Below are positions 5,961 to 40,858 of a stretch of 51,032 nucleotides of DNA, piece by piece. The stretch is from Chthonomonas calidirosea (GTDB taxonomy: Bacteria > Armatimonadota > Chthonomonadetes > Chthonomonadales > Chthonomonadaceae). The notes under the pieces are model-generated. The model did not search any database. It was not told the DNA's origin and worked only from the letters and a program-made list of their open reading frames with translations. Within the stretch, counting starts at the first letter, position 1. The number at the start of each line of letters is the position of its first letter. The translations under genes and the position numbers were made by a program. The stretch covers positions 1 through 51,032 of the forward strand of contig CAMCUQ010000003.1 in the NCBI GenBank assembly GCA_945878775.1. Reading direction: 5' to 3'.

Positions 5961-6754
5961 ATGCATAAGATTTTAAAAAGACTTGCCCTCGTCACTGTAT
6001 TTGCCCTTACGATACTCCTCTTCAGGACATCTGCTTCGGCATATACCTTCACCTTTGTTGGCAAAGGGGTGAATAGTCAAACGGGGAGTGTTTTGGCGGC
6101 ACAAGCGCAGTTCGATTATGATGGGGGAACCCAACTGCTGATCACGTTGTCCAATATTTCGGGTACAGGTGCACTCGCTCCCAGTGATGTTCTTGCGGCG
6201 GTTTTCTTCAACATGGACGAGAAAGACACAGCGACACCTCTTTTTGCAAAACTGGGCGCGAATTCCAAACTCCTCAATCCGCCTGGGAACTACAGCCTTG
6301 GCAAGGAGTGGGACTTTGAGCAGAAAAAAGGTATACTGAAATCGGCGAATACTGGGATAGGCGAATACTGGGATAGGCGAATACTGGGATAGGCGGGGCG
6401 GGTTTTGGCATATTTGGTCAAGGCAACTTTGATACCCCTGGCAATAACGTTCAAGGCTGGGAGTATGGCATTGTGAACGGTGTCGATCCAAAGGCGAACA
6501 AACTCACGCAGGCGACTTCCCTTGTGACGAACTCCCTCGTTTTCGGTTTCACGGTGAACAATGGCTTTAACTATAAGGAGCTGTCCGATGTCTATTTTCA
6601 GTTTGGCTCAAGCCTCTCAGACACCTTGCTGGAGGGAAAAGCGAGTCCCGGTATGCCCGGCGCGGTTCCCGAACCAGGTATGCTCTCTTTGCTCGCAGGA
6701 TTAGCCTCCACGGCACTATTTCCCGTGATCCGCCGAAAGATTTCGCGCATTTAA
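5961..6754 (+). pseudogene. PEP-CTERM sorted protein, frame broken by a 16-bp tandem repeat
   Basis: The N-terminal half has a signal peptide (KRLALVTVFALTILLF) and a beta-rich domain. It stops at 6390-6392 inside three tandem copies of a 16-bp unit. The C-terminal half continues in another frame to 6754 and carries the sorting signal VPEPGM, a hydrophobic helix and a basic end (IRRKISRI). Deleting two repeat copies in silico restores one continuous frame reading ANTGIGGAGFGIFGQGNF, which aligns with SNSGIGSNSFGGLFSSGNF of the adjacent paralogue. ATG 5961 is preferred over TTG 5940 because GGAG lies at 5945-5948 and the signal peptide follows. As sequenced, the product would be a truncated protein without its anchor. 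Confidence 0.85.
6345..6395 (+). repeat. Tandem repeat, 16-bp unit x 3.2
   Basis: Three exact copies of GCGAATACTGGGATAG occupy 6345-6360, 6361-6376 and 6377-6392, followed by GCG of a fourth. Copy number sets the reading frame of the PEP-CTERM gene. One copy leaves it open. Two copies shift it. Three or more always meet an in-frame TAG at the end of the third copy. Confidence 0.97.
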
Positions 6755-6771
6755 GACAAGAAAGATTAGAA

Positions 6772-6817
6772 CTGATATTTATATCAGGGTAAGAGTCGTG
6801 AGAATCTATCGTATAAT
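6772..6817 (+). promoter_or_regulatory. Palindrome and -10 element upstream of the second PEP-CTERM gene
   Basis: A perfect 16-base palindrome CTGATATTTATATCAG (6772-6787) lies 24 bases upstream of a consensus TATAAT (6812-6817). No good -35 hexamer is present, which would suit activator-dependent transcription with the palindrome as a protein site. That would leave a ~140-base leader before ATG 6963. This is inferred from sequence only. Confidence 0.4.
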
Positions 6818-6962
6818 ATAAGTAGTGTTCTTAGGGATATTGGTATTTTGTAGTACCTGTTACCCCCTTTCGACATAGAATAGACGCCAAGATGCAGTCT
6901 ATCAATGCAGACCGAGGCTTCGGTAGGGATCGACGACCTCTGTTATAGGAACTCCAATCAAC

Positions 6963-7739
6963 ATGATGGATTTGAAACGCACAACTCAACCCAGAACAAA
7001 ACTGCTTTGCATTCTATTCCTGCTGTCGCTCCTCTTTGTGGGCAGTGCTAAGCCAGGGAACGCGGCTTCGTTGTCGTTTTCCGTGGACGGTACAAACGCC
7101 GCAACCGGTACTTCACTCGTTGGCTGGGCAAACTTTGTATTGGATTCTCAAACCAATACACTCACCGTCCAAGTGATAAACGGCTCTGGGAATGCGGTTC
7201 AAACCACCGATATTCTTGGGGCAATTTTCTTTACAAACACAAACGGTAGCTCCATACTCACTCCGACTGGCGCAAGTAAAGGTCCCAATTCTTATGTGCG
7301 GAACCCACCTGCAACCTACAGTATTGGGCAGCAGTGGCAGTTCAAATCGGGGATTGCGGGACCTAGTGGCTCTAATTCAGGCATTGGAAGCAACTCTTTT
7401 GGTGGCTTGTTTTCCAGTGGAAACTTTGCGGCGAATGGTCAGAGCGTAAGCGGTATCAACTACGGTATTGCGAACGGTATCGACCAGAACGCTACTGCCG
7501 GTGTGAAGAACGCGGTTCTTATCCAAAACGAGGTAGATTTTAGCTTCACCGTTTCCAATGGTTTTTCCCTCGATAGCATTCGTGACGTCTATTTTCAGTT
7601 TGGCACGACGACCTCCGGACCGCGCCTCTTTGCAAACCTGAGCGTCCCTGAACCTGGAAGCATTGCACTCCTCATGACGATGGGTAGCAGTGGCTTATTA
7701 TTTGGTTTCCGACAGCGTCGATTACGCAAGCGAGCCTAA
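6963..7739 (+). CDS. PEP-CTERM sorting domain protein
   Basis: 258 residues. An N-terminal signal peptide (LLCILFLLSLLFVGSAKPGNAA) is followed by a Ser/Asn/Gly-rich beta-type ectodomain. The C-terminal exosortase signal has VPEPGS, a hydrophobic stretch and the basic end RQRRLRKRA. Exosortase would process it at the inner membrane for export, often together with extracellular polysaccharide. It is a paralogue of the broken upstream gene; shared blocks include NPPxxYSxGxxWxF, YGIxNGxD and DVYFQFG. Two ATGs (6963 and 6966) are possible, with AGGA about 12 bases upstream. No exosortase gene is in the window. The molecular function of the ectodomain is unknown. Confidence 0.85.
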   Translation: MMDLKRTTQPRTKLLCILFLLSLLFVGSAKPGNAASLSFSVDGTNAATGTSLVGWANFVLDSQTNTLTVQVINGSGNAVQTTDILGAIFFTNTNGSSILTPTGASKGPNSYVRNPPATYSIGQQWQFKSGIAGPSGSNSGIGSNSFGGLFSSGNFAANGQSVSGINYGIANGIDQNATAGVKNAVLIQNEVDFSFTVSNGFSLDSIRDVYFQFGTTTSGPRLFANLSVPEPGSIALLMTMGSSGLLFGFRQRRLRKRA

Positions 7740-36927: not shown

Positions 36928-38396
36928 GCGCTTGGATACTCCTTCTCAAACCACTCTATCACGGGCTGAATACTGCCCTCCATACCGCCGGAGGTCATGA
37001 AGATCACCACATCACCACGAGAGAGACTCGCATGATTGAGATTCTGGATAATCTCTTCCGCATTCGCGACAGGAATAACAGGACAGGTATTGCCGTGGTT
37101 GATTGCGTCCCAAATCTCCTCATGGCTGAGTTGTTCGGCGCCACTTAGCCCCCGCAGGTTTGGTGGGCTGAAGACCAGTACACTATGAACACCTTTGAAC
37201 ATGAGCGGATACCAGTCCAACGCTTGGCGCGAACGAAAACTAAAGGTGTGGGGTTGAAAGATCGCGTAGATATGGGACTGTGGGTGTCGCTCTTGGAGGG
37301 CTTGGAGTGCCGCAACCGCTTTGGGGCGGGAGCTGGACAGGTCTTCATAAAGGAAAACGCTACTTGTATTGGACTTGATTTCGAGCCGACGCCGTATACC
37401 CCGAAAGGCGGCAATCGCATCTTGGATGGCTCTTGCCTCCAACGCGTTCTGCTCTACAAGGGTTGCCACGCAGCCGACAATGTTTTGGACGTTATGCTCC
37501 CCTAGCAGTTGTGTCGTAATTTCGATTTCTTGGACAATCTCGCGCGTCTGTTGGTTTCGCTTGCAGACGGTGAAGCGTGTGTGAGCCTCGTTTAGTGCTA
37601 TGGCGCTGACAAACCAGTCGGCATTGGGGTTATTCTGACCAGAGTAGGTTACGACTCTGGCTTTGGTGTCACGAATAACATTTTGCACCTCCTTGCCATC
37701 CAGACATGCGATGAGAAGATTATCAGCAGTGAGAGTCGAAAGGAGTTTGCGGTAAGGGGTAAGATAGGAAGCCAGGGTAGGGAACTCGTTGAAATGATCG
37801 TGTTCGCAGGAAGTGAGCAGAACGGTGCCTGCATTGTAGTGGAGAAATTTCGGAGAAGAATCCCAGTTTGCGGAAGGGTATTCGTCACCTTCAAGAACAA
37901 AGAACTTCCCCGTACCACGGCTCGCATTTGCCGTAAAATCGAGGGGAATCGCTCCAATGAAATAGCTTGGATCGACTCCTGCATGGGCAAGGCTCCACGC
38001 CAGTAGGGTTGTCGTCGTTGACTTTCCGTAGCTCCCCACTACGACAATGTTGTGCGTGCTCTGCGTGAGCAAATTTAGTACTTGAGGATAGGAGACGATT
38101 GCAACCTCACCTTTTGCCTGACGCTCAAACGCAGATTTGACCTCCGCATTCTGCTCCGGTGTGAGTTTGGCGTGCTTGCCAATGACCACAAGCGCACACT
38201 CTGGAGGGATGTTTTCGGGTGCGTAGGGTGTTTTACATGATAAGCCCTCCTGCTCCAGAAACGTGCTGACCGGGGGGTAGAACCCATTGTCTGAGCCAGA
38301 GACATTCCAACCGTCATCTTGCATGAGTTTTGCGACGGCACTCATTCCTGCACCACAGATACCGATAAAGTGAACTGTTTTCGCCCGTTCTGTCAT
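36924..38396 (-). CDS. Mur-ligase-family protein resembling Mpl
   Basis: 490 residues. The N-terminal Rossmann domain (VHFIGICGAGMSAVAKLMQDDG, GSDNGFYPPVSTFLE) and the middle ATPase domain (P-loop VGSYGKSTTTTLLAW, FFVLEGDEYPSANWD, SCEHDHFNEFPT, LLGEHNVQNIVG) follow Mpl, the ligase that recycles murein tripeptide onto UDP-MurNAc. Two places differ. The P-loop is GSYGKS where Mpl has GTHGKT, and the usual DDFAHHPTA motif of the C-terminal domain reads EDLSSSRPKA. Either it is a divergent Mpl or it joins other substrates. ATG 38396 overlaps the MFS stop by 4 bases. Confidence 0.8.
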   Translation of the reverse strand: MTERAKTVHFIGICGAGMSAVAKLMQDDGWNVSGSDNGFYPPVSTFLEQEGLSCKTPYAPENIPPECALVVIGKHAKLTPEQNAEVKSAFERQAKGEVAIVSYPQVLNLLTQSTHNIVVVGSYGKSTTTTLLAWSLAHAGVDPSYFIGAIPLDFTANASRGTGKFFVLEGDEYPSANWDSSPKFLHYNAGTVLLTSCEHDHFNEFPTLASYLTPYRKLLSTLTADNLLIACLDGKEVQNVIRDTKARVVTYSGQNNPNADWFVSAIALNEAHTRFTVCKRNQQTREIVQEIEITTQLLGEHNVQNIVGCVATLVEQNALEARAIQDAIAAFRGIRRRLEIKSNTSSVFLYEDLSSSRPKAVAALQALQERHPQSHIYAIFQPHTFSFRSRQALDWYPLMFKGVHSVLVFSPPNLRGLSGAEQLSHEEIWDAINHGNTCPVIPVANAEEIIQNLNHASLSRGDVVIFMTSGGMEGSIQPVIEWFEKEYPSA

Positions 38397-40858
38397 TGTT
38401 GTAGGCACTCCCGAAGTGTGAGGATAAGGAGAAGGGTCTCTTCGGGTTCGTGCTCTTCAAAGCCGCAAAGACGTTCGAGCATCGCGTTCAGAAGCCCCTT
38501 ATCTCCGATTTGGGGTATGTGGGGAAGGATTTCCCGAACGCGTTGAATAAACGCGTCCTGCTCACCGGAGAGATAAGTTTCCATCAGCCCCTCCATGTCT
38601 GGTATCTCAGGGGTAGCTTTAGTTCGCCGTTGGATGTCTTGCAGTATTTTGGAAACCGCATCTTCTCGTGCATACGCCTCTCTGGAGAGCAGGGGATAGA
38701 GGGTCTCTTTTGCGCCGATGATACTTGCGATAGCGACCGCAACCTGCTTTCTTGCGACGGGGCTTTTCAGAAAATGGAGTTTATCGATAAGTTCCGAGAG
38801 TGCTGTTGTATCTTTCAGGCGTGCCAATGCGTCGGCTAGTGGAGGCAGGGCAACATCATCATCTCCCATCGTGGCGAGGCAATGGTGCAGTGCCGGCAAT
38901 GCTTCCAGAGCGTTTAACTCCCCAAGGGTGCGGATGATGGCGAGAGCAAGCGGGCGTGTAGGGTTCATTTCCAGCTTTGCAATCAGGGTAGGAGCAACAA
39001 AGCGTTCTCCAATCTCACCCAATGCACGAGATATTGCTTCCTGAACCTCTGCGTCGTGGGTCTCTTCGAACTCTTGGAGGAGTAGGCTCGCGGAGTCAAA
39101 ACCTCCCAAGTCTCCCAACGCCTGCACAACCGCTATCTGTTCACTGCGTCTCAGATGGCGGTCGGAATCGAGCAGCAGATTCGCTATTTCTGTGATGGCG
39201 CGTCGATCTCCAATGCGTCCTAGAGCTTTGACGACTTCACTGAGTATCTCATTGGCAGGATCGTGTAGGGCATGAAGTAGCGCTTCCACCGCCACGCTAT
39301 CGCCTATTTCGCCGAGGGCGTGTGCCGCCTCCAAACGCACGGCTGGGTTTGGATCGTGCAGAGCAAGCTCCAATTCACTGACCGCCAAACCCGCCTTCGA
39401 TTCTGCCAACGCCTCTGTTGCGCGTAACTTTCCCTCTGCGTCATCTCCTCGTTGTAGTCTACGTATGTTTTGCCATGTTCGTGGGTTTGCGCGTCGCAGT
39501 TGGTGCAGGACCTCCTTTGTGGAGGCGGCACGTCCATCTTCTACTTTGCGCAGAAAGAGGAGACCTGTCAGGCGGAGCATCGCACTAATGAAGAATACCA
39601 CATGGAAGTTGAGCCAATCTATTCCAAGAAAATGCCCCGTCCAGCCTGTTAGCCCGCTCATTATCAGACTGCCAACAAGGGGGGCTAGCCCACCTGTCAA
39701 GCCTGTAATGGCAGACATGGTTGCCACATAGATCGGAGTTTTTTGGCTAGGACTCATGGAGATGAGCAGATTGAACTGGGTGAGCGTGACGCCTGCCCAA
39801 GACAGCCCGCCCAAGAGGTTGAGAAGGGTAAGCAGTGCAAACATAAGCCCCGGCTTTGTGGGGTTGACGACCACCCAAAAGAGGGGCAACGTGAAGGTTC
39901 CGCAGACGCCTAATGCCAACAGGGGCTTGTTTCCAAAGCGATCAGAGAGATAGCCCCATAGTGGCATGGAAGTGAGGCTGGAGATACTGGTGAGCGTGGC
40001 AAAAACCTGTAGCCAAACGTTGTCAATGTTCAGGTTTTTGAGGGCATAGACGGTATAGAAATGTGCGGCAAAGTTTTGTCCCAAGCCAAACACGACATTG
40101 AAAGTCATGAGGCGAACAAAGTTTTTGTCGTTGAAAGGGGTCTTGTAGTAGGCGAGTATCCCAGCGAAGCCTTGGGGAGCATCTTCGGAGGGAGGGGGGC
40201 GGTGTAGAGGCGGCTCCGGTTGGCGCAAGAGGCAGAGAAAAGAAAGAACGCCTCCTAATAATCCCACTCCGAAAAGCACGCTAAATCCAAAGACCCCCCA
40301 ATGGTGTCGCTTAGTGGTGAAGTCGAGGAACCACGCGGCAGGTAAGCCAAGCACCATTGCCACGATCCCCGCGATCATGTTCCTGCGCCCAAAATAGCGT
40401 CCCCGATGATCCGCTGGAACGAGATCGCTCATCCAAGACATATAAGCGGGCAAGGGGATGTTGAGGGAGACATAGGAGCCTGCCAAAAGAACAAGAAACG
40501 CGCCTAGGGCAACACTACGTGGGAGCAAAAGTGGCAGAAGTAATATCGGGAGCCAGAGACCTCTGCCCAAAAGGGAGAACCATGCCGTAATCGGTTTTCT
40601 TGCGGGTAGCCTGTCTGTGAAATAGGAGGCGACTATCTGAATAAGCCCGCAGAAGGTTGGGATTGAGGTCATTATGCCAATGACGATATTGTTTGCCCCA
40701 AGCCACAGCGCAAAACCCGTCATAAAGATTCCCGTGGTGAGTGTTGCCCAAACGGTGGCAAAGCTCGCCTCCCAAGTCGCCATACGGAGTCCACGAAGCA
40801 CCTCTAGGCGATTTAACTCTTTTGGAGTCTCTGGGGTTGCTGTCTGCATGGTCTCCAT
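38393..40858 (-). CDS. MFS transporter fused to a HEAT-repeat domain
   Basis: 821 residues. Residues ~1-440 form a 12-helix major-facilitator domain, including ADHRGRYFGRRNMIAGIVAM (the intracellular motif-A-like loop) and the second-half LWGYLSDRFGNKPLLALG. After a linker (~445-475), residues ~475-780 are about nine PBS-lyase/HEAT-type repeats such as AVRLEAAHALGEIGDSVAVEALLHAL and VVKALGRIGDRRAITEIA. The helical arm would be cytoplasmic and could bind partners. Substrate unknown. The stop overlaps the Mur-ligase start (ATGA), so transporter and ligase are co-translated. Confidence 0.85.
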   Translation of the reverse strand: METMQTATPETPKELNRLEVLRGLRMATWEASFATVWATLTTGIFMTGFALWLGANNIVIGIMTSIPTFCGLIQIVASYFTDRLPARKPITAWFSLLGRGLWLPILLLPLLLPRSVALGAFLVLLAGSYVSLNIPLPAYMSWMSDLVPADHRGRYFGRRNMIAGIVAMVLGLPAAWFLDFTTKRHHWGVFGFSVLFGVGLLGGVLSFLCLLRQPEPPLHRPPPSEDAPQGFAGILAYYKTPFNDKNFVRLMTFNVVFGLGQNFAAHFYTVYALKNLNIDNVWLQVFATLTSISSLTSMPLWGYLSDRFGNKPLLALGVCGTFTLPLFWVVVNPTKPGLMFALLTLLNLLGGLSWAGVTLTQFNLLISMSPSQKTPIYVATMSAITGLTGGLAPLVGSLIMSGLTGWTGHFLGIDWLNFHVVFFISAMLRLTGLLFLRKVEDGRAASTKEVLHQLRRANPRTWQNIRRLQRGDDAEGKLRATEALAESKAGLAVSELELALHDPNPAVRLEAAHALGEIGDSVAVEALLHALHDPANEILSEVVKALGRIGDRRAITEIANLLLDSDRHLRRSEQIAVVQALGDLGGFDSASLLLQEFEETHDAEVQEAISRALGEIGERFVAPTLIAKLEMNPTRPLALAIIRTLGELNALEALPALHHCLATMGDDDVALPPLADALARLKDTTALSELIDKLHFLKSPVARKQVAVAIASIIGAKETLYPLLSREAYAREDAVSKILQDIQRRTKATPEIPDMEGLMETYLSGEQDAFIQRVREILPHIPQIGDKGLLNAMLERLCGFEEHEPEETLLLILTLRECLQQ

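Follow-up and report, generated by a model that had tools for sequence, protein, structure and literature searches.

A frame-breaking 16-bp tandem array in an XDD4-family surface-protein gene of Chthonomonas calidirosea

The interrupted gene and its array

The window, by which we mean the whole 51,032-nucleotide stretch of contig CAMCUQ010000003.1 that was analyzed, carries a gene of the XDD4 family of exosortase-dependent surface proteins (NF045504, NCBIfam) at positions 5961–6754. The reading frame opens with an ATG at 5961, a few bases downstream of a GGAG motif, and the sequence reads as a signal-peptide-like N-terminus, MHKILKRLALVTVFALTILLFRTSASA. A tandem array of a 16-bp unit sits inside this gene. 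The features of the locus are as follows:

5961–6392, forward strand: truncated XDD4 product as assembled, signal peptide and the N-terminal portion of the XDD4 domain, 143 aa (NF045504, frame test, codon score)
6333–6348, forward strand: degenerate 16-bp unit ATACTGAAATCGGCGA, overlapping the first five bases of copy 1 (TRF)
6344–6391, forward strand: three exact tandem copies of GGCGAATACTGGGATA (TRF, direct reading, frame test)
6395–6754, forward strand: C-terminal half, out of frame, with VPEPG, a hydrophobic stretch and a basic tail (NF045504, codon score)
6963–7739, forward strand: intact neighboring XDD4 paralogue with a PEP-CTERM signal and no array (NF045504, 100.1 bits; TIGR02595, 20.7 bits)

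The three exact copies that had been placed at 6345–6392 are this same array read in another register. Exact 16-bp periodicity extends over 6344–6395, with the copies identical (a 36-nt exact run at lag 16), and TRF counts 3.9 copies across 6333–6395. The 16-mer was ruled out as a dispersed repeat: outside the array it has only four sites in the genome, each with two mismatches. A search over the contigs returned 119 scattered matches, apparently unrelated. Folded as single-stranded DNA, the array does not stand out (z 0.24), and no Rfam family was found in the window.

Both parts of the gene score above the curated NF045504 cut-off of 40 bits. The N-terminal half matches profile positions 3–119 of 202 (78.9 bits) and the C-terminal half positions 121–201 (48.5 bits), so that the positions are contiguous and leave no residues to spare for extra copies; the break thus lies exactly at the array. 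With one copy of the unit the gene is a full-length family member, whereas the assembled allele is split in two. In the out-of-frame PEP-CTERM region the VPEPG motif, hydrophobic stretch and RRK are visible, and the region scores 14.1 with TIGR02595 (cut-off 16) and 14.7–17.4 with PF07589 (cut-off 20.7). An antisense ORF at 5973–6491 was rejected as a gene, its codon score being about zero (-0.015), and an internal GTG start at 6473 could yield only a fragment with no signal peptide. Elsewhere in the window, the reverse strand at 38396–40858 encodes an 821-aa ORF that joins a major-facilitator transporter domain (33–393) to HEAT repeats (best stretch 496–573), an unusual-looking combination.

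Copy number and reading frame

The gene was translated with 0 to 10 copies of the unit. Only a single copy gives a frame open to its natural end, producing 253 aa with the PEP-CTERM tail in frame. Without the unit the product runs out of frame at 155 aa, two copies give 151 aa, and three or more give 143 aa, ending in a TAG that occupies 6390–6392 in the assembled three-copy allele. Alleles with four or seven copies, longer than the one-copy form by a multiple of three units, remain off because the TAG always forms at the end of copy three. The original prediction had one copy open, two shifting the frame and three or more meeting the TAG, and the translations bear this out. Relative to the one-copy form the assembled gene carries a net insertion of 32 bp. 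Losing two copies would bring the gene back into frame, which makes the lesion reversible in principle; reversion by loss of exactly that number would be plausible, on the pattern of the pneumococcal capsule-gene duplications discussed below.

It had further been proposed that changes in copy number would alternate anchored and unanchored forms of a surface protein. This part is weak. What remains in the 143-aa product is the signal peptide and about 59% of the domain profile; the truncation removes the rest of the domain (about 40%) together with the PEP-CTERM tail. A stable secreted form lacking only its anchor is therefore unlikely, and the assembled allele has presumably lost its function.

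Paralogues, relatives and the age of the break

The genome holds three XDD4 genes: the broken one, its intact neighbor and a third on contig 25. Across 291 genomes of the phylum we found 29 such genes in 20 genomes, the broken gene included. Three of the other 28 also look broken, none of them by an array of this type. In one (L138, G019:C10, reverse strand near 1412–1417) the frame changes at a run of seven G, and homopolymer slippage, decay or a sequencing error may account for it. A second changes frame in roughly the region of the protein where the window gene is broken, again with no array, and is adjoined by an intact paralogue (L183, G012:C407, reverse strand 1827–1889). The third, in G137, is missing its 5' part. 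These breaks may represent decay or assembly errors. With three other genes broken, losing an XDD4 copy is no rarity in these assemblies and calls for no special mechanism. A different kind of change was seen in the XDD4 gene L134 (G002:C492), in which a short stretch, FVRLTRRF, stands in place of the LSDI seen in relatives; this could be a small compensated frame change.

Tandem pairs of XDD4 genes were observed in the window (5961–7739) and at G156:C23 (L155/L175), G096:C286 (L158/L178), G168:C22 (L161/L176), G169:C122 (L164/L177) and G012:C407 (L170/L183). That the genes so often stand in pairs in this phylum suggests that local duplication has happened repeatedly, and any one copy may be dispensable as a result. 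A true orthologue of the broken gene was not found by synteny in G001, G002 and G003. In G001 and G003 there is no XDD4 gene within a few kb beyond the phosphoesterase, and in G002, where both contigs end between the two flanks of the locus, the XDD4 gene beside a multihaem cytochrome gene is the counterpart of the neighbor, not of the broken gene. A cognate exosortase was not found in this assembly, which is only 65% complete; each of the three same-genus genomes has one, and 17 of the 21 genomes searched carry one. In Aquincola, a PEP-CTERM gene is reported to be linked to floc formation (PMC9850573).

Comparison with homologues supports one copy as the ancestral coding state. Against its closest homologues in the phylum the one-copy protein aligns with no gap across the unit-encoded NxGIG motif, which reads NTGIG here and NSGI or NMGIG in the nearest relatives; the family profile agrees. 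Each half of the gene remains coding-like in its own frame (codon log-odds per codon of 0.145 for the N-terminal and 0.194 for the C-terminal half), as high as the intact neighboring genes (0.093 and 0.126); wrong frames score -0.23 to -0.34. Between the start codon and the end of the PEP-CTERM region we saw no further disabling change, leaving the array as the only break. With both halves coding-like, a single break and identical copies, the lesion appears young; the break looks recent from this one sequence, which cannot date it.

Origin of the array and alternative readings

We scanned 1.03 Mb (about 40% of the genome, taken as stretches) for exact tandem arrays of period 7–60 with at least two copies and at least 24 nt. 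Seven were found, and six have periods divisible by three. The window array is the exception, and being the only such array in 1.03 Mb whose period is not a multiple of three, it is not attributable to chance. A 400-kb sample from a family relative yielded three arrays, each of period 12, and 19 distinct homologous genes contain no exact array with a unit of at least 7 bp. The array is thus alone of its type in the sample, with none in the relative or the homologues, and the sampled genome shows no class of switch arrays.

We consider it highly probable that a recent slipped-strand or unequal duplication turned one 16-bp stretch into three and truncated one of three XDD4 paralogues. The seed would have been an imperfect 16-bp direct repeat, ATACTGaaATcGGCGa / ATACTGggATaGGCGg, already present in the one-copy gene, in which ATACTGAAATCGGCGA is directly followed by ATACTGGGATAGGCGG (12 of 16 bases alike). 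The chance of such a match at one fixed place is about 4e-5, a figure that precedes any counting of places and lags and concerns a match spotted post hoc. After copying ATaGGCG, a nascent strand could slip back 16 bases, pair with ATcGGCG and recopy the stretch, which would yield exactly the second copy that is observed. Once made, the perfect repeat would expand or contract more easily; the net gain of 32 bp would then shift the frame, truncate the protein at 143 aa and leave the gene off in the assembled genome. Judged from the sequence, slippage is the likely cause of the triplication.

An assembly or sequencing error, the real genome having one copy, is unlikely. The assembly is fragmented (139 contigs, 65% complete), which would favor an error, but the array with its degenerate unit spans 63 bp, under ordinary short-read length, and the remaining large ORFs, which together tile 93% of the window, look uninterrupted. 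Short repeats are more often collapsed than expanded by graph assemblers, and to our knowledge exact 32-bp insertions are not produced by long-read errors.

Similarly unlikely is a reversible switch that evolved or is maintained through slippage, in which the surface protein would be made with one copy and not made with two or more. In simple-sequence-repeat contingency loci, slipped-strand phase variation acts through the copy number of an intragenic repeat, which sets the frame. The XDD4 array resembles them in lying within a gene, in having a unit that is not a multiple of three and in setting the frame by copy number, here seen by TRF and the frame test; the gene is otherwise intact and its anchor signal is preserved out of frame. 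Unlike those loci, it comprises few copies of a long unit, is private to one gene and belongs to no genome-wide class in the 1.03 Mb sampled, nor is it kept in the 19 homologous genes. Only one copy number is on, and the open state does not recur with gain or loss of copies between 0 and 10, so that from three copies exactly two must go. A cell with one copy would retain only the imperfect 12/16 repeat, and switching back off should be slow. Unrelated lesions in some other XDD4 genes likewise count against a switch.

Spontaneous tandem duplications in pneumococcal capsule genes offer a closer parallel. They are described for the type 3 locus (Waite 2001) and for cap8E and tts (Waite 2003), and are reported to control phase variation, both as cited in a later paper (PMC4022640). 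There, too, a surface-related gene is put out of action by a short, exact tandem duplication inside its ORF, and the XDD4 case likewise has an exact duplication, not a multiple of three, in the ORF of an otherwise intact gene. In the capsule genes, with two copies, reversion has been reported and loss of the extra copy can restore the gene, expected at no more than about 1e-5 for an insertion of at longest nine bp (PMC4022640). The XDD4 array, in contrast, is known from a single sequence with three copies, of which two must go, and would be revertible in principle only. Indels that break the frame and may silence genes reversibly have also been described in Mycobacterium tuberculosis, where comparison of 5977 isolates revealed scars and restoring second indels (PMC8339072); the XDD4 case is like these in breaking the frame and unlike them in coming from one genome with no scar. 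In the library searched, no paper brings exosortases together with tandem repeats and frameshifts; a few mention both PEP-CTERM and phase variation.

Recoding, in which a -1 ribosomal shift near the stop (CTG GGA TAG) would give some full-length protein from the three-copy allele, is very improbable: a single -1 shift at 6375–6390 would restore the frame, and re-pairing of the glycine tRNA from GGA to GGG next to the stop should be possible in principle, but 6375–6390 holds no classical slippery heptamer and none of the 19 homologous genes examined has the array. Slippage at the AAAAAA run was also rejected, as this run lies upstream of the array and cannot rescue the frame by one shift.

The array most likely records a recent knock-out of one paralogue by slippage, which is a known type of mutation. 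The original prediction stands in that the array breaks the frame, one copy is ancestral and the break looks recent; it does not stand as to a dedicated switch, since the comparisons made yielded no evidence that the array was selected as one. Recent decay, which it had offered as an alternative alongside assembly error, is the best-supported reading. If cells with one and three copies coexist, the locus would be a switchable exosortase substrate, and tandem-duplication phase variation would extend to a poorly studied phylum. If the three-copy allele is fixed, it would be a commonplace pseudogene within a small set of paralogues, and its main use would be as a clear example of slippage at an imperfect repeat that was already in place.
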